A DNA stretch of 64,000 nucleotides, from positions 1 to 64,000 of the forward strand of contig JAFWDU010000002.1 in assembly GCA_017516005.1 (NCBI GenBank), written 5' to 3'. This DNA is from Oscillospiraceae bacterium. Lineage in GTDB: Bacteria; Bacillota; Clostridia; Oscillospirales; Oscillospiraceae. The position numbers and the translations under genes are program-made. Under the pieces are notes generated by a model. The model did no database searches. It had not been told where the DNA came from and saw only the letters and a list, made by a program, of their open reading frames with translations. Positions 18,713 to 27,783 of this stretch are shown here, in pieces (position 1 is the stretch's first letter; each line of letters opens with the position of its first letter).

Positions 18713-19735
18713 ATGAGAAACCACGAAATCACCGCGCAGGGCATGCTGCTGGATCAAAACGGAGCGCTCACCGAGCCCGGCTGGGCCAGATCCCAGCTGC
18801 TTCAGTACAAACGCAGCATGATTCATGCGCCATCCTTCCGAATCAAGGAGTGGGATTATTATCTGGTCCCGTCCGACGGCTTCGCCGGTGCGTTCACCAT
18901 CTCCGATGACGGCTATATCGGTCTTCAGTCCGTATCTCTACTGGTCTTCGGAGATCAGCCGTGGGAACATACGCAAACCGTTCTCAAACCCTTCCCCCTC
19001 GGCAAGCTCAAGCTTCCGGAAGACTCTTCCTCCGGAACCACCGAATACGCGGATAAACGCCTTCAGATGCGTTTCTCCCTTGAAGACGGAACCCGACGGA
19101 TCCGCTGCCACTTTGAGGACTTTCTCCAGGGAAAGCCCTTCGACTGCGACATCTCCCTTGCACAGCCGCCCATGGACACCATGGTAATCGCAACGCCGTG
19201 GAACAGGAAGCACGCTTTCTACTACAACCAGAAAATCAACTGCATGCGCGCAAGCGGCTGGATGCAGTATGACGGCAGGCGGTATGAATTCAATCCCGGA
19301 ACGGATTTCGGCACACTGGACTGGGGCCGCGGCGTGTGGACCTACGACAACACCTGGTACTGGGGTTCCGGCAACTGTGATCTGAACGGCAAGGCGTTCG
19401 GGTTCAACATCGGCTACGGCTTCGGGGATACCTCCGCGGCAAGCGAGAACATCCTGTTCTACGACGGAACCGCCCATAAACTGGACGACATCGTATTTCA
19501 TATTCCGGAGGACAGCTACCTGAAACCCTGGACCTTCACCTCCTCGGACGGACGGTTTGAGATGGACTTCGTTCCCGTTCTGGATCGTGCCGCCAAACTG
19601 GACTTCAAGCTGCTCGTCTCGGATCAGCATCAGGTCTTCGGCCGGATGACGGGCAAAGCCGTCCTGGATGACGGAACCGTAATCGAAGTCCGCGACATGA
19701 TGTGCTTTGCGGAGAAAGTGCATAACCGGTATTGA
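18713..19735 (+). CDS. DUF2804 domain protein
   Basis: The protein has 340 residues; start ATG at 18713 follows CAGGAGGT. The whole length reads as a DUF2804 family protein: conserved-looking blocks are ITAQGMLLDQNG, MVIATPWNRKHAFYYNQKIN, TFGTLDWGRG-like DFGTLDWGRGVW and WYWGSGN. The family is widespread in anaerobes and its structure suggests a lipocalin/hydroxyneurosporene-synthase-like beta barrel, but no biochemical role is established to my knowledge. No signal peptide is present, so it is cytoplasmic. It stands alone between the divergent lysine operon and a bidirectional terminator. Confidence 0.8.
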   Translation: MRNHEITAQGMLLDQNGALTEPGWARSQLLQYKRSMIHAPSFRIKEWDYYLVPSDGFAGAFTISDDGYIGLQSVSLLVFGDQPWEHTQTVLKPFPLGKLKLPEDSSSGTTEYADKRLQMRFSLEDGTRRIRCHFEDFLQGKPFDCDISLAQPPMDTMVIATPWNRKHAFYYNQKINCMRASGWMQYDGRRYEFNPGTDFGTLDWGRGVWTYDNTWYWGSGNCDLNGKAFGFNIGYGFGDTSAASENILFYDGTAHKLDDIVFHIPEDSYLKPWTFTSSDGRFEMDFVPVLDRAAKLDFKLLVSDQHQVFGRMTGKAVLDDGTVIEVRDMMCFAEKVHNRY

Positions 19736-20337: not shown

Positions 20338-20380
20338 AAGAAGGCCGTGACAGGTTCTCATGCCCTGTCACGGCCTTCTT
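20338..20380. terminator. Strong terminator after the M16 protease gene
   Basis: AAGGCCGTGACAGG pairs with CCTGTCACGGCCTT around a short loop, with T-rich ends on both strands. Confidence 0.8.
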
Positions 20381-20419
20381 GAGCATTGGTTTTTTGCGGA
20401 ATCTGCTGTTTCCCGTCTG

Positions 20420-23400
20420 TTACAGGGCGTTCACATACTCCATCAGGATCTCAGCAAGTTCTCCGCGGGTCAGAACGTCCTCGGAGGCATCTTCATCCGA
20501 CTCGTACTCCACTTCCGCCGCCTCACTGAAAGCGGTCAGGATCTTGTCGGCCTTCTTTCCGGTCAGTGTGTCATCCGCGTGCGTCTTCTTCGATACGATG
20601 CTGTATCCGGCAAGGAACTCCACCGCTTCGTCCGGAGCAGATGCATCTCCGCCGATCAGGGCGTAGAGTGTGGCTGCCAGATCACCGACGGTCGCTTCGT
20701 CATCCACGCCGAAACGGGTCTCTTCCGCCGGCAGCATCAGCAGGTTTTCAAACATGAACCGGGCCGCCTCATAATGGGAATGGTCTTCCGGCAGATCGTC
20801 AAAAGCGATCTGACTGGAATCCACCGCGCCGAACGGATTGCGGACAATCTCATAAAGCTCCTCGTTCTGGGAAATGGTAGAGGCACCGCCGGCTGTGAAG
20901 CGAACGCCGTTCTCAACCAGTTTCTGGTAGAGCGATGCATAGGCCGCCAGTTTCTCCGGGGTCAGCGTCTTCAGATCCCGCATATACTGGAGCTTGAGAT
21001 CCTTCGGTTCCTTGGTCAGCACGGAAAGTGCTGCACTTACGGCTCCGCTGAGCTCTCCTTCCGGCATTGCGTAATACGAATACGAGGAGAGAATATATCC
21101 GTTAATGGTATCCTGGTCGATTTCCAGATTCGTAATATAATCCGGCAGGTCATCGTATACGTCAAACGTCTCCTTGACGTTGGGATCCCGATAGGAAACG
21201 ATATAGACGCCCACATCCTCCGATGCCGCGTGGAACACGCCGTAGGCGCCGTACTGATCGCGGAGCATGGGATACAGATACAGGTCTGTCACCAGGGCAC
21301 TGACTGCATCCAGGTCGGCGGAATAGCCTTCCAGTCCGAGCTGTGCAAAGTCGGCCACAACACCGTTGAAGGAAACAGTGCTGTCAACCACCAGTCCCTC
21401 ACTTGCTGCAGGTGCCTCAAAGGAGAGCGTTGCAGCCTCGATCGGTTTTGCATCCAGTTTCTGAAGGAAAGCCTCAGAAAGGGGCGCATTGGTCTTGATG
21501 CCGTTATCGCTGCCCGCGTAGAGCGTGATCGCACCTGTGCGGTTGTGGAAATAATCCCGGATCTGCTCCAGCTTCTCCACGGCGGCATCCGGATTCTCCT
21601 GCAGGAGCAGTTCCGTATTCTCCAGGAATGCGTAGAAATCCAGATAATTGTAGTAATAGTAGTACGCATACAGGTCAGAGTATCCGCTGAATGCATGATA
21701 GAGCGCTGCCTGATACGGAGCGTTTGTAATCGCGGTCTTCAAGGAAGCCTTGTTGCGCTGTACCAGGCCGAGGAGGGTATCCGTATCCGAGAAATCACTT
21801 TCAAAGAGGATCTCGTACATCAGATTGTAGCCCGCCTCCAGATCTTCATCGGAAGAGATCCAGCCGGCCCGCAGATACGGCGTGAAGCTGTCGCTGCCGT
21901 ACTCATTGAGCAGGGAAAGGCGAATCTCGCCGCTGTAGAGATAACGGGTCATCTGCACAGCCAGTTCCTCACTGGTATGCTTCGCCGTATTCAGTTCACC
22001 CAGAATGGAAGTATAGAGGGCAAACCAGTGGATATCCTCCTGCGCCAGTCCGGATGCATCCAGGAACAGAACGTTCTGCCCCACTCCGTCGACGCCGGCT
22101 TTTGCCGTCAGAACCCGGACTCCGTCATCCACGACTTTTTCGCTGACGTCGTAGCTGCTGGTTTCTTCCGGAAGAGAATCCACGGTAACCGCCTGAAGCT
22201 GCGCCACATAGGCGGATGCGTCGTCTTCCTCTTCTGCGGCATTGGTCTGATCAACCAGCGCCTGCAGCTCCTCCTGCGTCATGGAAGCCTTGACGCCCGC
22301 AAGGCGCTCGGCCTCTGCCGCGTCCAGGGTTTCACGAAGGCCAGCTTCCGGATGGGTAATTGCCAGAACTGTGGTCTCGCAGCCGACCAGCCAGTCGGAG
22401 ATTGCCTTCTTGTAAAGGCCCTGCGCGTTCCAATCGTCCAGCTTGTTCAGAGCGTCCACATAGTCCATGTAGTTGAAGTGGTCGCCGGAAGTCGAATAAG
22501 AAAACGCGATGCTCGAGATCAGATCCACACCGACCTCGTCCCCTTCACCGGTCAGCTTTGCGCTCATGGCAAGAGACGCCATGATGCCATCCACCAGATC
22601 CTGCGCGAATCCCTGTTCTGCCAGATCGGCCAGAACGCTGTCCACCGTCTCACGGAAAACAGTCGCGTCCTCCGGATCCACATTGCTCGCCATGAAGACA
22701 ATGGCGTCCTCCGGGCCGGATGTCTCAATATAAGTCGCAAAGGTGCCGGTCGGCAGGGCCTTCTTCAGGCTCTGCATCAGGGGCGATGCGTCCGCAACCA
22801 GAAGATCCGTCAGCGTATTGAGGATCATCTCCTCCTGCAGATCCTTCTTCAGGCCGGGGCACAGGAAACCATAATAGATATCCGAGCTGTCCGTGGTGGT
22901 GGAAGAGGCTTCCACGGGATAGGCGTAATCCTTTTCCACGCTGCCCTGAATTGCCTGATAGCCTGCATCTTCAAAGCTGAACTCATGCTTCTCGTAGGGA
23001 GAGAAAGCCTCGTTGAGGAGCTTCAGGAACGCTTTATAGTCGTCAAACTGTCCGTACAGATAGGCGACACAGTTGGACGGATGATAGTAAAGATTGTGAT
23101 AGTCCTGCAGACTCTGCCAGGTCATCTCCGGAATATGCTCCGGCTCGCCGCCGGACTCATTGCCGATGGTGGATCCGGGGAATGCAGTGCGAAGGAAATT
23201 ATTGTAGGCGCTGCTGCTCAGAGACATCGCGCCCTGCATTTCGGAATAGACAGTGCCTTCAATGGTCAGATCACTTTCCAGATCCGGCAGGCGGTAGCGC
23301 CAGGCCTCTTCCCGGAAGATGCTCTCATCCTTCATGATCATAGGATGCAGGCAGCTGTCGGTGTAGTAATCCGCATATTTCAGCAGCTGCGCCTCCGACA

Positions 23401-23827
23401 GGCTGGCGACCGGATAGGAGGTCATCAGAGCCTGTGTAAACGCGTTCATGTAGGTGTTGTAAGTCTGATAGGAAAGATTGAAGAACAGCGCCTTGGACGG
23501 ATACTTGTCCGAACCGTCCAGCGTGGAGTGCTCAAATACATGGGGAAGACCCGTGTTGTCGATCGCTCTTGTCAGGAACGTCAGATCGAACACGCGGTTT
23601 GTATCGTTATTGGCAATGTAGACGAGTGCCGCTCCGGTTTTTTCATGTTCAAAACGGACCACCGTCGCGCCAACCAGAGGAAACTCGCGGATCTCCTGAA
23701 CCACAAATCCCTCCACTTTGTTTCCGACTTTCGGAAGCTTTGCACTATTTGCCGTTTTCCCGCCGCTGCAGGCCGCCAGAGAGAGCAGCATGGCAGCAGC
23801 CAGAATCAAAGCAAGCAGCTTTTTCAT
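20420..23827 (-). CDS. M16C (PreP-like) metalloprotease lipoprotein with SLH-like C-terminus
   Basis: The protein has 1135 residues. The signal peptide ends LLSLAAC with a lipidated Cys20, so it is exported. The M16 inverted zinc motif HxxEH is at 96-100 (LPHVFEHSTLDG) and the distal zinc-binding glutamate is Glu196 (YSEMQG), 96 residues after the last histidine as in PreP-type enzymes. The duplicated M16 halves extend to about residue 1000. The last ~130 residues resemble degenerate SLH repeats (ATVGDLAATLYALIGGD and LTRGELAEILMEYVN). An extracellular oligopeptidase held on the wall or membrane is inferred. Most PreP homologues are cytoplasmic or organellar, so export plus SLH is notable. 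Confidence 0.88.
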   Translation of the reverse strand: MKKLLALILAAAMLLSLAACSGGKTANSAKLPKVGNKVEGFVVQEIREFPLVGATVVRFEHEKTGAALVYIANNDTNRVFDLTFLTRAIDNTGLPHVFEHSTLDGSDKYPSKALFFNLSYQTYNTYMNAFTQALMTSYPVASLSEAQLLKYADYYTDSCLHPMIMKDESIFREEAWRYRLPDLESDLTIEGTVYSEMQGAMSLSSSAYNNFLRTAFPGSTIGNESGGEPEHIPEMTWQSLQDYHNLYYHPSNCVAYLYGQFDDYKAFLKLLNEAFSPYEKHEFSFEDAGYQAIQGSVEKDYAYPVEASSTTTDSSDIYYGFLCPGLKKDLQEEMILNTLTDLLVADASPLMQSLKKALPTGTFATYIETSGPEDAIVFMASNVDPEDATVFRETVDSVLADLAEQGFAQDLVDGIMASLAMSAKLTGEGDEVGVDLISSIAFSYSTSGDHFNYMDYVDALNKLDDWNAQGLYKKAISDWLVGCETTVLAITHPEAGLRETLDAAEAERLAGVKASMTQEELQALVDQTNAAEEEDDASAYVAQLQAVTVDSLPEETSSYDVSEKVVDDGVRVLTAKAGVDGVGQNVLFLDASGLAQEDIHWFALYTSILGELNTAKHTSEELAVQMTRYLYSGEIRLSLLNEYGSDSFTPYLRAGWISSDEDLEAGYNLMYEILFESDFSDTDTLLGLVQRNKASLKTAITNAPYQAALYHAFSGYSDLYAYYYYYNYLDFYAFLENTELLLQENPDAAVEKLEQIRDYFHNRTGAITLYAGSDNGIKTNAPLSEAFLQKLDAKPIEAATLSFEAPAASEGLVVDSTVSFNGVVADFAQLGLEGYSADLDAVSALVTDLYLYPMLRDQYGAYGVFHAASEDVGVYIVSYRDPNVKETFDVYDDLPDYITNLEIDQDTINGYILSSYSYYAMPEGELSGAVSAALSVLTKEPKDLKLQYMRDLKTLTPEKLAAYASLYQKLVENGVRFTAGGASTISQNEELYEIVRNPFGAVDSSQIAFDDLPEDHSHYEAARFMFENLLMLPAEETRFGVDDEATVGDLAATLYALIGGDASAPDEAVEFLAGYSIVSKKTHADDTLTGKKADKILTAFSEAAEVEYESDEDASEDVLTRGELAEILMEYVNAL

Positions 23828-23877
23828 GATTTCATCCTCCTTGAATCACGCATGCCCTGCATGCGCGGCTAGGGTGT

Positions 23878-24074: not shown

Positions 24075-24103
24075 TTGCCCCGCTTGCAATGTTTTGGTAT
24101 AAT
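24075..24103 (+). promoter_or_regulatory. Promoter of the C-glycoside deglycosidase-like pair
   Basis: TTGCCC (24075-24080) and TATAAT (24098-24103) are 17 bases apart, and TGG before the -10 box makes an extended -10 (TGGTATAAT). Confidence 0.7.
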
Positions 24104-24152
24104 TGCCTCGGAAATTGCCGAAAGGCAAACAAATGAACAAGGAGGAATTATT

Positions 24153-25028
24153 ATGGCTCAGAATGAACCCAAGGGCGTCAAGCGCGGTGTCTCCACCTAC
24201 TGCTATGACAAGTTCCTGTATGTCAACATGGACATGGAGGACATGTTCCGCGACATGTACGACATGGGTGCTACCGGTCTTGAGATCCTTGCTGACGGCG
24301 TGATCGAGGGTTATCCCTATCCTTCCGCTGCATGGCTGGACAAATTCTTTGCTCTGACCGAGCGCTACAACATTGTCCCTGTGGAGTATGGTCACTGGGT
24401 AGAGTCCCGTCTGTTCCCGGATCGGGACGGCACTGTGGAGGAGCAGGCTGAAATGCTCATCCATGACATCAAGCTTGCGCACCTGATGGGCTTCACCTGC
24501 ATGCGCACCAAGCTCGGCGTTATCGATGAGACTCTGTCCCCCTGGCAGGGCTGGCGCGAAATCATTAAGCGCGCACTTCCCTATGCTGAAAAGTTCGATG
24601 TCCGTATGCAGCCCGAGATTCATGCTCCCACCCTGCTGAAGGATCCGATGATGATGGACTACTGCGAGTTCATCGACAAGGAGCAGACCAAGTTCTTCGG
24701 CTTCAACATTGACTTCGGCGTATTCAGAAATGTCGGCGTCATGCACTTCCCCGGCCAGGATCCCAACCGTCCGCTGTGGTCCGAGCCCGAGGACATCGTC
24801 CCCCTGCTGCCCTACATCTACTGCTGCCATGCGAAGTTCTATGACATGGATGAGAACTTCGATGAAGTCACCATCCCCTACAAGAAGGTCGTTCAGCTCA
24901 TGATCGACAACGGCTGGGACGGCTATCTGCTCTCCGAGTACGAAGGCAAGAACAAGGACAACATGTTCCACGTTCAGACTCAGCTGCGTCGCCATCATGT
25001 GATGCTGAAGAACCTGATCGGTTACTAA
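24153..25028 (+). CDS. TIM-barrel sugar isomerase-like protein, candidate C-glycoside deglycosidase large subunit
   Basis: The protein has 291 residues from ATG at 24153 (AAGGAGG upstream); the reading frame extends to 23994 but only through the promoter. It belongs to the xylose isomerase-like/AP-endonuclease-2 TIM-barrel superfamily. Metal-ligand candidates in the usual order are the Glu and His of QPEIHAP, the Asp of NIDFG, the His of CCHAKFYD and the Glu of LSEYEG. The next gene is a DUF6379-type small subunit. In characterised C-glycoside deglycosidases (DgpBC, CarBC) exactly these two proteins form the complex that cleaves the C-C bond of a 3-keto-C-glycoside. Substrate here is inferred only from this pairing. 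Confidence 0.8.
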   Translation: MAQNEPKGVKRGVSTYCYDKFLYVNMDMEDMFRDMYDMGATGLEILADGVIEGYPYPSAAWLDKFFALTERYNIVPVEYGHWVESRLFPDRDGTVEEQAEMLIHDIKLAHLMGFTCMRTKLGVIDETLSPWQGWREIIKRALPYAEKFDVRMQPEIHAPTLLKDPMMMDYCEFIDKEQTKFFGFNIDFGVFRNVGVMHFPGQDPNRPLWSEPEDIVPLLPYIYCCHAKFYDMDENFDEVTIPYKKVVQLMIDNGWDGYLLSEYEGKNKDNMFHVQTQLRRHHVMLKNLIGY

Positions 25029-25047
25029 TTGAAAGGAGCTGAAAACC

Positions 25048-25488
25048 ATGCTTGAAAATGAATTGATCCAGTATCGCGGCTTCCATAACATTGTGGAAAA
25101 CGGCGAAGTCACCGGTTTCCAGGTCTGCATCCGTCAGTGCGTTTACCGCGGCACCTGGCTGAGCCAGTTCCGCTTCGGCGCTCTGGTTGTGGACGGCGTT
25201 GAGTACGGCCCCGATGACTGCACCTTCACTGTGAGCGGCATCGAATACAAGTATGAGGAAATGGCTCCTCTGTGGCGGGTCAAGTTCCCCCTGAACGAAG
25301 TCATGGTCATTAAGGTCAAGAAGCCCGGCGGCCTTGCTCAGGGTGAGCACACCGTGGACATCCGCACTGGCCAGATCCGTTCCTATCTGCCTCCCCGCAT
25401 TGACGCTTCCCTCACTGCTCCCCGGGATCCCAATGGTCCCCGTGACATGATGGGAATGAGCAACCTCAGAAAGCTGATCATCGTCTGA
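25048..25488 (+). CDS. DUF6379 protein, candidate C-glycoside deglycosidase small subunit
   Basis: The protein has 146 residues; the start follows GAAAGGAGC and lies 19 bp after the TIM-barrel gene. Typical DUF6379 blocks are visible: FHNIVENGEVTGFQV near the start, YRGTWLSQF, VDGVEYGPDDCTFTVSG and VKKPGGLAQGEHTVDI. In the known enzymes this all-beta subunit binds the TIM-barrel subunit and completes the active site for C-glycosidic bond cleavage. No signal peptide, so the complex is cytoplasmic. The operon ends at terminator 25502-25535. Confidence 0.82.
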   Translation: MLENELIQYRGFHNIVENGEVTGFQVCIRQCVYRGTWLSQFRFGALVVDGVEYGPDDCTFTVSGIEYKYEEMAPLWRVKFPLNEVMVIKVKKPGGLAQGEHTVDIRTGQIRSYLPPRIDASLTAPRDPNGPRDMMGMSNLRKLIIV

Positions 25489-25501
25489 TCGACCAAAACA
25501 C

Positions 25502-25535
25502 AAGGCGCTCCCGTCATTTAAGGCGGGAGCGCCTT
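25502..25535. terminator. Bidirectional terminator between convergent genes
   Basis: AAGGCGCTCCCG (25502-25513) pairs perfectly with 25524-25535 around a 10-base loop. It separates the deglycosidase pair from the convergent oxidoreductase gene. Confidence 0.85.
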
Positions 25536-25583
25536 TCTATGCTCTGCTGTGTTATATCAGGAATTTCAGATTGGTTTGTTGGA

Positions 25584-26660
25584 TCAGTTTTCAGGATCCG
25601 GATGGAAGTCACGAAGAAGAATGGTTCTGTCTTCCCTGCTGGACTCGAACCCTGCAAGAACAGCACGAAGCGCATTGACGGATCTGGCATCTGCGGCGTC
25701 CGAATAGTCGCCCTTCTCAATTGCGTTCACAAAAGCGCGGATCACACCGGACTGCCTCTGATCCTCGTTGGTCATCATCACATCCAGATCATAGAATATT
25801 TTATCTCCGCGATCTGTGCTGATTGCGATGGTGTGATCCGGATGTTCATACAGACGCATGACGCCCTTGGTGCCGAAGATCACGGTGGAATTGTCCTCAC
25901 TGCCATAGTTCGTCCAGCTGACCGTCATGGTGCCGTATATATTCTTGCTCATACGGTAGATGCACAGCGCATTGTCTTCCAGTTCAATCAGGTTTCCGTC
26001 ACTCGTCCGTTTGTCCAGCGTCAGGATTTTTGCAGTCACTTCCGTAATCTCATCATCCAGAAGATACTGAATCAGGTCTACCTTGTGGATGCCGAGATCC
26101 GCCATGGCTCCCATGGACGCGACATTCTTGTCAAAGAACCAGATATCGCGCTGGATTTCACCATCGTCATTCTCGTAACGGCACCAGTTCTCCGGTCCGC
26201 CATGACAGAAAGAAGTTTTAAAGGTGAGCGGCGTGCCGATTGCTCCTTGGGCGATGAGTTCTTTGGCGCGCATGTGTCCTGTATTATACCTCTGATTCTG
26301 TGCGATCATCAGGAATTTACCGGACTTCTCTGCAGCCCGGAGCATACGCTGACAGTCTTCCACGGTAGTTGCCATAGGTTTCTCGCACAGAACATGTTTT
26401 CCTGCTTCCAGTGCCTGTACGGTTAGATCCGCATGAGCATTATTCGCGGCACAGATACTGACTGCATCAATGGCGGGATCTGCAAACAATTCCTCCAGTG
26501 TCCGGTATACCCTGCCGCCGTATGTGCGTGCAAGCGCCACACCGCGCTCCGGCATATAATCGAAATAGCCCACCAGACGGGCCTTCTGATGCGAGGCATA
26601 TTCCGGTACATGTCTTCGCTGTGCAATTCTTCCGCACCCGATAATTCCGATTCCTGTCAT
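25584..26660 (-). CDS. Gfo/Idh/MocA-family NAD-dependent oxidoreductase, candidate glycoside 3-oxidoreductase
   Basis: The protein has 358 residues. The Rossmann fold starts GIIGCGRIAQ (residues 4-13); the nucleotide-side catalytic-lysine motif is CEKPMA near residue 94; the second-domain motif MADLGIHKVDLI carries the Asp and His typical of sugar dehydrogenases of this family. It faces the C-glycoside deglycosidase pair tail to tail. In the puerarin pathway a Gfo/Idh/MocA enzyme (DgpA) oxidises C3 of the sugar before the deglycosidase acts, so the same role is plausible here. Other sugar substrates cannot be excluded. Confidence 0.8.
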   Translation of the reverse strand: MTGIGIIGCGRIAQRRHVPEYASHQKARLVGYFDYMPERGVALARTYGGRVYRTLEELFADPAIDAVSICAANNAHADLTVQALEAGKHVLCEKPMATTVEDCQRMLRAAEKSGKFLMIAQNQRYNTGHMRAKELIAQGAIGTPLTFKTSFCHGGPENWCRYENDDGEIQRDIWFFDKNVASMGAMADLGIHKVDLIQYLLDDEITEVTAKILTLDKRTSDGNLIELEDNALCIYRMSKNIYGTMTVSWTNYGSEDNSTVIFGTKGVMRLYEHPDHTIAISTDRGDKIFYDLDVMMTNEDQRQSGVIRAFVNAIEKGDYSDAADARSVNALRAVLAGFESSREDRTILLRDFHPDPEN

Positions 26661-26736: not shown

Positions 26737-27783
26737 CTATGAGCGCTCAAGTACGTAATCACAGAACGCATCCACGGAATACGCACGAAAGTACATTTCC
26801 TCCAGCGGAATCCAGCGTTCCCGGAACGCATCCAGCTTGGTGATATCCCGTTTCGCGAGCCGCTGCAGCTGTTGTTCCGGATCAATGGTGAGAAACACCC
26901 GCATGTCATACAGGGAGCGAAGCGACGGATGGCACGAGTAGGAACCTTCCACAATCGTTACCGGTGTTTTCTCAAAGGAAACAGGCTCGGCAATTTCCAT
27001 GACGCTGCAGTCAAACGGACGGTAGGACGAAAGCGCTCCGTCGCGCAGGGGGAGAAGCACTTCCTCCAGGAAACGCTCGTGATCCACATTCTCGCCTGGT
27101 GCGGCATAGCGCTCCGGGGTCCTCTGCTCCGGCCGAAGAAAGAAATCATCCATGTGAATTACGCTCCAGCCGAAACGTCTGTGCAGTTCATCGGCAAAAG
27201 TGCTCTTTCCGGAGGCGCATCTGCCATCAATCGCAAGAATCAGATTCTCACTCCGGCGGGATCTTTCCTGTACTTCCTGAAGCAGAAGCGGAAGGGAAAA
27301 ACGCCTGAGAACAATTCGGTAGGCCGGCTGATAAGCTGTCCTGTAGGGATCGGAATGGGAAACCATGGGATAGCCGGCATTGCGGTAGGCTTCCAGATAA
27401 CGATCCAGAGCTTCCAGTGAAAAAGCGAAGCATCCTTCTTCTGTCACGGCGCGAAGATCCGTCAGTTTCTCCTCAAAGGAGGAAAGATCACCTGATACCG
27501 TCGCGGCAGACCGGATAAAATCCCGATTGAGGAGATCCAGGGGATAATCTCCGCCAAGATTGACCCGGACAATGCCGTTTCCAATGGGCTCAAACTCCTC
27601 GGAAGGAGCGCCGCTTCTCTTGGACGCCTCTTCCGACAGGCGCGAATAAGAAGCATCGGGATCCGAAATGAGATGCCCGCCGCCGAATTCATTCTGATAG
27701 ACCAGTTTCACAGCGTCCTGCGGCTCCATCTGCGGATACTTTTCCCCATTGGCGCGCAAAATCTGTCTCAGTTCCGTATTCAT
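26737..27783 (-). CDS. Uridine kinase-like P-loop protein with extra N-terminal domain
   Basis: The protein has 348 residues. Residues 1-170 form a separate domain containing PQDAVKLVYQNEFGGGHLIS and FSLEALDRYL, which I do not recognise. Residues 178-348 are a uridine-kinase/phosphoribulokinase-like P-loop domain: Walker A GRCASGKST (187-195), then VIHMDDFF, typical of the kinase's second carboxylate motif, and a C-terminal lid with RLAKRDITK. It may phosphorylate a nucleoside or another small substrate; the N-terminal domain may set specificity. It has no clear operon partners and lies convergent to nothing; mreB starts upstream on the same strand. Confidence 0.7.
   Translation of the reverse strand: MNTELRQILRANGEKYPQMEPQDAVKLVYQNEFGGGHLISDPDASYSRLSEEASKRSGAPSEEFEPIGNGIVRVNLGGDYPLDLLNRDFIRSAATVSGDLSSFEEKLTDLRAVTEEGCFAFSLEALDRYLEAYRNAGYPMVSHSDPYRTAYQPAYRIVLRRFSLPLLLQEVQERSRRSENLILAIDGRCASGKSTFADELHRRFGWSVIHMDDFFLRPEQRTPERYAAPGENVDHERFLEEVLLPLRDGALSSYRPFDCSVMEIAEPVSFEKTPVTIVEGSYSCHPSLRSLYDMRVFLTIDPEQQLQRLAKRDITKLDAFRERWIPLEEMYFRAYSVDAFCDYVLERS

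Follow-up and report, generated by a model that had tools for sequence, protein, structure and literature searches.

Ordinary glycosidases cannot open C-glycosides, and the activity of several plant drugs and feed compounds turns on whether gut bacteria set the aglycone free. The family that manages this, the C-glycoside deglycosidases (CGDs; DgpBC, CarBC and DfgAB), consists of 3-keto-glycoside lyases fed by a separate 3-oxidase, DgpA or D3dgpA, whose substrates include many C- and O-glucosides; it is the lyase that confers specificity (PMC11239390). The dgpABC genes of strain PUE have been described as a single operon, and lyase genes can also lie apart from dgpA (PMC11170127). Here, we compare with these systems a pair of adjacent alpha- and beta-subunit genes, together with an oxidoreductase gene beside them, in a stretch of 64,000 nucleotides from an Oscillospiraceae bacterium (positions 1 to 64,000 of the forward strand of contig JAFWDU010000002.1, GenBank assembly GCA_017516005.1), which we call the window. 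The pair is, on strong evidence, a member of the CGD family, and the small, gut-type genome around it carries at least 14 pairs of this kind.

The closest described system is EuCGD of Eubacterium cellulosolvens (DfgA-DfgB; PDB 7bvs, 7exb and 7dre), with which the pair shares 53% identity in the alpha and 41% in the beta subunit (BLAST, against reference rows taken from HMMER alignments), the absence of a lid, the long loop with its Leu128, the Pro115 of the beta subunit and all of the catalytic and metal residues. Searched against PDB sequences, the alpha subunit finds EuCGD alpha first (7bvs_A, E 1.3e-98); its eight best matches are all CGDs, and the one non-CGD hit, at E 0.002, is a protein with an isomerase domain. 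The beta subunit finds EuCGD beta (DfgB, 7bvs_B, E 1.5e-23) and, after that, only CGD beta chains. In Pfam, the alpha subunit falls in PF01261, the xylose-isomerase-like TIM barrel (E 3e-10), and the beta subunit scores 100 bits in PF19906, where the cut-off is 27.6. This family, formerly DUF6379 (a name for which our literature search found no paper), is now CGDB, the “C-glycoside deglycosidase beta subunit.” An AlphaFold2 model of the alpha subunit (predicted local distance difference test score 85.8, built on a 13-row alignment) brings up CGDs as its top 16 PDB chains in a fold search (E 8e-39 to 1.6e-18), with the isomerase 4ovx next at 1.1e-13. Model confidence is low at residues 87–92 and 125–129, which fall partly on the loop equivalent to M121–N133 of EuCGD, and long loops are disordered in the cryo-EM structure of EuCGD (Mori et al., PMC8563793). 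In a tree taken among CGD alphas (a quick search supplied its branch support, and not all of its long branches are certain), the window alpha lies inside an EuCGD-type clade of 29 rows with a Shimodaira–Hasegawa-like approximate likelihood ratio test (SH-aLRT) value of 99. As an enzyme, then, the pair is a new addition to an already known family, and an earlier note on this DNA, which had matched a TIM-barrel protein and its DUF6379 partner to DgpBC and CarBC, was right about the pair.

The other characterized enzymes stand farther away. PuCGD, also called PuCGE (DgpC-DgpB of Dorea sp. PUE; 7exz and 7bvr), has in common with the pair the two-subunit fold, the metal site and a beta-subunit tyrosine, Tyr39; unlike the pair, it has a four-helix lid, specificity for C8-glycosides and dgpA in the same operon, and its alpha identity of ∼32% comes in two segments. 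The fused CGD of Microbacterium testaceum (8qrz; 37% alpha identity) shares a large clade with the window alpha but is a single beta-alpha chain, and the CGD of Deinococcus aerius (8qvc) is of the same family at 30% alpha identity.

More surprising than the pair itself is how many of its kind surround it in the genome, a matter of which the earlier note had no view. The metagenome-assembled genome (MAG) that holds the window (945,943 bases, ∼70% complete) contains 14 PF19906 genes, each in an alpha/beta pair: nine on contig C22 (24–65 kb) and one each on contigs C1, C2 (the window), C9, C10 and C19. Seven of these pairs are lidless and EuCGD-like, with the alpha gene first, and seven are of a longer-alpha type, with the beta gene first; both types occur among the nine on C22, which are packed into 41 kb (C22:23929-64634) and include the genome's actual counterpart of EuCGD (C22:56026). 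Of 14 AP_endonuc_2 matches in the genome, 12 are CGD alphas, and there are only three Gfo/Idh/MocA genes (in the window, at C6:11.8 kb and at C7:2.7 kb). This multiplicity is well above the highest published count that we found in open papers (an earlier report is possible), the seven pairs of Catenibacillus decagia. Like the present genome, that of this gut bacterium has several CGD pairs, with its dgpA genes located separately, but its 6.6 Mb hold dfgAB and six dgpBC clusters vs. 14 pairs in 0.95 Mb here, and its 11 dgpA homologues, which were called exceptional, compare with three Gfo/Idh/MocA genes here (PMC11170127).

Two other genomes are richer still: a congener (Oscillospiraceae MAG SIG488, our G001, for which we found no isolation source in the literature), with 25 PF19906 copies, and a Lachnospiraceae MAG from the ovine abomasum (RGIG5178, our G065), with 33; our residue and tree comparisons cover 21–23 and 28–29 of their CGD rows, respectively. 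Elsewhere, the family is sparse. Among 59 relatives, CGDs were found only in the congener and, as one copy each, in two others; none of the 35 other genera in the family has more than one copy; and a class-wide sample of 390 other genomes contains five with any PF19906 gene over the cut-off, none of these having more than eight. Rows from the three rich genomes are no less mixed on the alpha tree than shuffled ones (12, 18 and 22 label changes), and because the repertoires interleave in this way, they appear to consist of old subfamilies held in common, through transfer or through retention; recent duplicates are not their main component. Recent tandem duplication, which we considered as the main source of the 14 pairs, is rejected by the same interleaving; a few near-duplicate pairs do exist (G001 contig C38). 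Novosphingobium, Enterococcus and others have plasmid-borne relatives of the alpha subunit at <60% identity, so transfer is possible.

Are these bacteria that live on C-glycosides, or do CGDs mostly serve a much wider range of glycosides? In AgCGD2, the metal ligands are Glu147, Asp179, His269, Lys271 and Glu305, and the catalytic residues are His149 and Glu307, a His and Glu that have been mutagenized (Mori 2021, PMC8563793). Their equivalents in the window alpha, numbered from the ATG at 24153, are Glu155, Asp187, His226, Lys228 and Glu262 for the metal and His157 and Glu264 for catalysis. None of the seven is missing from any of the window genome's 14 alphas or from any of 29 alphas of the Lachnospiraceae MAG, and of 21 complete congener rows, 20 have the full set. 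The odd one out, on contig C19 of the congener (L094:7598-8641), carries an Asp where the others have the catalytic His and retains all of the metal ligands and the beta tyrosine; it is possibly a lyase with altered chemistry. That tyrosine, Tyr39 of PuCGE, is specific for C–C cleavage, since the Y39F mutant loses >99% of its activity on C-glycosides and keeps much of its activity on O-glycosides (Bitter 2023, PMC10628242). Tyr33 is its equivalent in the window, and it is invariant across 65 beta rows (14/14 in the window genome, 23/23 in the congener and 28/28 in the Lachnospiraceae MAG).

As for the aglycone, EuCGD is C6-specific, and its Leu128 (alpha) and Pro115 (beta) have been proposed to clash with C8-glycosides (PMC8563793). 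Because the window pair has both residues, we predict, with modest confidence, that it would prefer 6-C-glycosyl flavones, such as isovitexin and homoorientin, over 8-C-glycosyl flavones. Our confidence is only modest because the window alpha sits outside the tight EuCGD subclade, in a neighboring one of 13 rows (SH-aLRT 97); with this placement, the new substrate that the earlier note suggested is a possibility.

How might such a pair, and so many of them, work? A separate oxidoreductase would oxidize C3 of an aryl beta-glucoside to give the 3-keto form; the metal of the alpha subunit would bind the 3-keto group while His157 abstracts the C2 proton; Tyr33 of the beta subunit, at the subunit interface, would help to hold the ionized phenol near the glycosylated carbon; and the aglycone would leave by beta-elimination along with 2-hydroxy-3-keto-glucal, to be hydrated and reduced later to glucose. 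The most economical reading of the genome would be a panel in which every lyase has an aglycone range of its own and one broad 3-oxidase, or a few, supplies them all. Many lyases and few oxidases make a coherent design because the 3-oxidase is broad, the lyase is specific and their genes are separable. Taken as a whole, the best explanation, and one that we hold to be quite probable, is that the pair is a CGD-family lyase, 1 of at least 14 pairs that may form such a panel. A bolder extension, which we offer tentatively and would not yet bet on, is that gut Clostridia that are only distant relatives but all have small genomes (14, 25 and 33 CGDs) hold parallel panels of anciently diverged 3-keto-glycoside lyases, each devoted to its own aglycone and all served by a few promiscuous 3-oxidases, in a modular, nonhydrolytic way of harvesting glycosides in which lyases would fill the role that glycosidases have in other gut bacteria. 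In rumen-type habitats, the C-glycosyl flavones of grasses would be a natural supply. Whatever their substrates prove to be, 14 pairs and a further 25 and 33 beta genes supply natural variants with which aglycone specificity could readily be mapped.

Several facts weigh against this explanation or against parts of it. The copy number of the window genome comes from one incomplete MAG, and the absent oxidases may sit in the missing 30%; the separate subclade of the window alpha means that the C6 prediction may not transfer; and PuCGE also cleaves 3-keto-O-glucosides (PMC10628242), so the conserved residues are no proof that a C-glycoside is the natural substrate. This last point grows into an alternative of its own, in which the pair is a 3-keto-glycoside lyase mainly for O-linked aryl glucosides and C-glycosides are incidental. 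PuCGE handles 3-keto-phlorizin (an O-glucoside) about as well as 3-keto-nothofagin (a C-glucoside), plant O-glycosides are far more numerous than C-glycosides (both PMC10628242) and the very many paralogues suggest many different aglycones. We think this alternative unlikely, although it deserves to be taken seriously: the tyrosine needed for C–C cleavage and barely for O–C cleavage is invariant, and several 3-keto-O-glycosides break down without any enzyme (PMC11239390; PMC12724307), which makes a lyase for them less needed. Far less probable, to the point that we give it almost no weight, is an ordinary sugar isomerase or epimerase beside a small uncharacterized protein. It has in its favor that PF01261 takes in isomerases and that general annotation would use that name, but CGDs rank far above isomerases in sequence and in fold (it is by these PDB rankings that we dismissed an identity as an unrelated isomerase), a beta partner adjoins the alpha gene in all 14 copies and the full CGD active site is kept. 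The tree, taken among CGDs, and the residues also contradict it, and the grouping with unrelated isomerases that would have sunk the earlier proposal is not what the searches and the tree gave.

The adjoining Gfo/Idh/MocA oxidoreductase raises the remaining alternative, which was also the claim of the earlier note: the three genes form a complete, working set, and the neighbor is the lyase's own C3 oxidase, as DgpA is for DgpBC. The gene is intact and of the NAD type, with the EKP motif, Asp188 and His192 conserved, and it does face the pair from the opposite strand, its end ∼95 bp from the beta gene. It does not do so in the manner of DgpA, since it converges on the pair tail to tail, whereas dgpABC is one operon; being convergent, it must be a separate transcript, and the window pair, in contrast to EuCGD with its dfgE, has no such oxidase in a codirectional cluster. 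DgpA itself (7xr9 and 7xre) is of the same superfamily, but the window enzyme is 27% identical to it over 235 residues by BLAST (32% in the genome search) vs. 77, 69, 65, 61, 58 and 57% for the DgpA relatives in other CGD-bearing genomes; it is not clearly the best DgpA match even within its own genome, and it is not a DgpA orthologue. Nor is the adjacency conserved. The counterpart pair in the sister species (the congener; 67% alpha and 64% beta identity, L071) has no such oxidoreductase gene beside it, and that genome has no orthologue of it, the best match anywhere in it being 29%. Among 391 class genomes, homologues (E ≤ 1e-80, 39–50% identity) occur in 18 others, none with a CGD; the overlap of these 18 with the 5 other genomes that have CGDs over the cut-off is 0, where ∼0.2 would be expected, the numbers being small. 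A fold search did not separate the window enzyme from inositol, anhydrofructose, GFOR or levoglucosan enzymes. The nearest relative that we found, at 65%, does come from the most CGD-rich genome, that with 33 (G065:C29), where it sits at the end of a contig whose visible 14 kb contain no CGD. Most likely, the gene encodes a sugar or glycoside dehydrogenase; as the 3-oxidase of the pair's pathway it is not supported as stated, and we consider that role doubtful. What gives the role some chance is that the recovered genome has no more than three Gfo/Idh/MocA genes, of which this is one, and that it has that 65% relative.

Features of the locus, with coordinates in the window.
Feature	Coordinates	Strand	Basis
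Promoter-like site, TTGCCC-17 nt-TATAAT, with TG ahead of the second hexamer	24075..24103	+	Consensus scan, 10/12 matches
AGGAGG ribosome-binding site	24140..24145	+	Read directly; 7 nt before the alpha ATG at 24153
CGD alpha subunit, TIM-barrel 3-keto-glycoside lyase (EuCGD/DfgA type, no lid domain)	24153..25028	+	PF01261, 7bvs_A match, residues, fold
CGD beta subunit	25048..25488	+	PF19906, 7bvs_B match, Tyr33, Pro115
Gfo/Idh/MocA NAD(P)-dependent sugar/glycoside dehydrogenase (putative)	25584..26660	-	PF01408 (E 6e-34)/PF22725; convergent with the pair

The two lyase genes are separated by 19 bp from alpha stop to beta start, and the beta gene is preceded by an AAGGAG of its own. Most searches used an alpha reference that starts at 24144, with three extra residues (GII), and this had no effect on the results. 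The start at 24075 in the earlier note is not a gene start; it is the −35 hexamer of the promoter-like site, and such sites in the consensus scan are no more numerous than in shuffles. Base composition gives no sign of a foreign island, G+C being 54% in the alpha gene and 57% in the beta gene vs. 52% in the window.

Around the other lyases and the relatives of the oxidoreductase, some further arrangements may be recorded. The pairs on C22 are interspersed with DUF3502 solute-binding lipoproteins, a MatE transporter and an aldo/keto reductase, and an IclR regulator lies just beyond them. The congener (L086–L104) and the Lachnospiraceae MAG (L105–L124) have several single fused chains (474–510 aa) with both alpha and beta domains, like 8qrz. 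In CGD-free genomes, the oxidoreductase homologue often stands, as judged by eye, beside sugar ABC transporter, sugar-isomerase-like, second Gfo/Idh/MocA and ThuA-like genes (L135, L137, L138, L140 and L142).

Elsewhere in the window, the gene downstream of the oxidoreductase (26737-27783, minus strand) encodes a C-terminal uridine-kinase-like P-loop domain and an N-terminal half that matches no assigned family; it has a full-length match at 43% in another genome (G021) and no clear counterpart in the sister species. An open frame of 1170 codons (20360-23872, plus strand), antisense to an M16C peptidase gene (20420-23827, minus strand), is probably an effect of composition and not a gene. At 18716-19735 (plus strand), the window encodes a full-length DUF2804 protein (474 bits).
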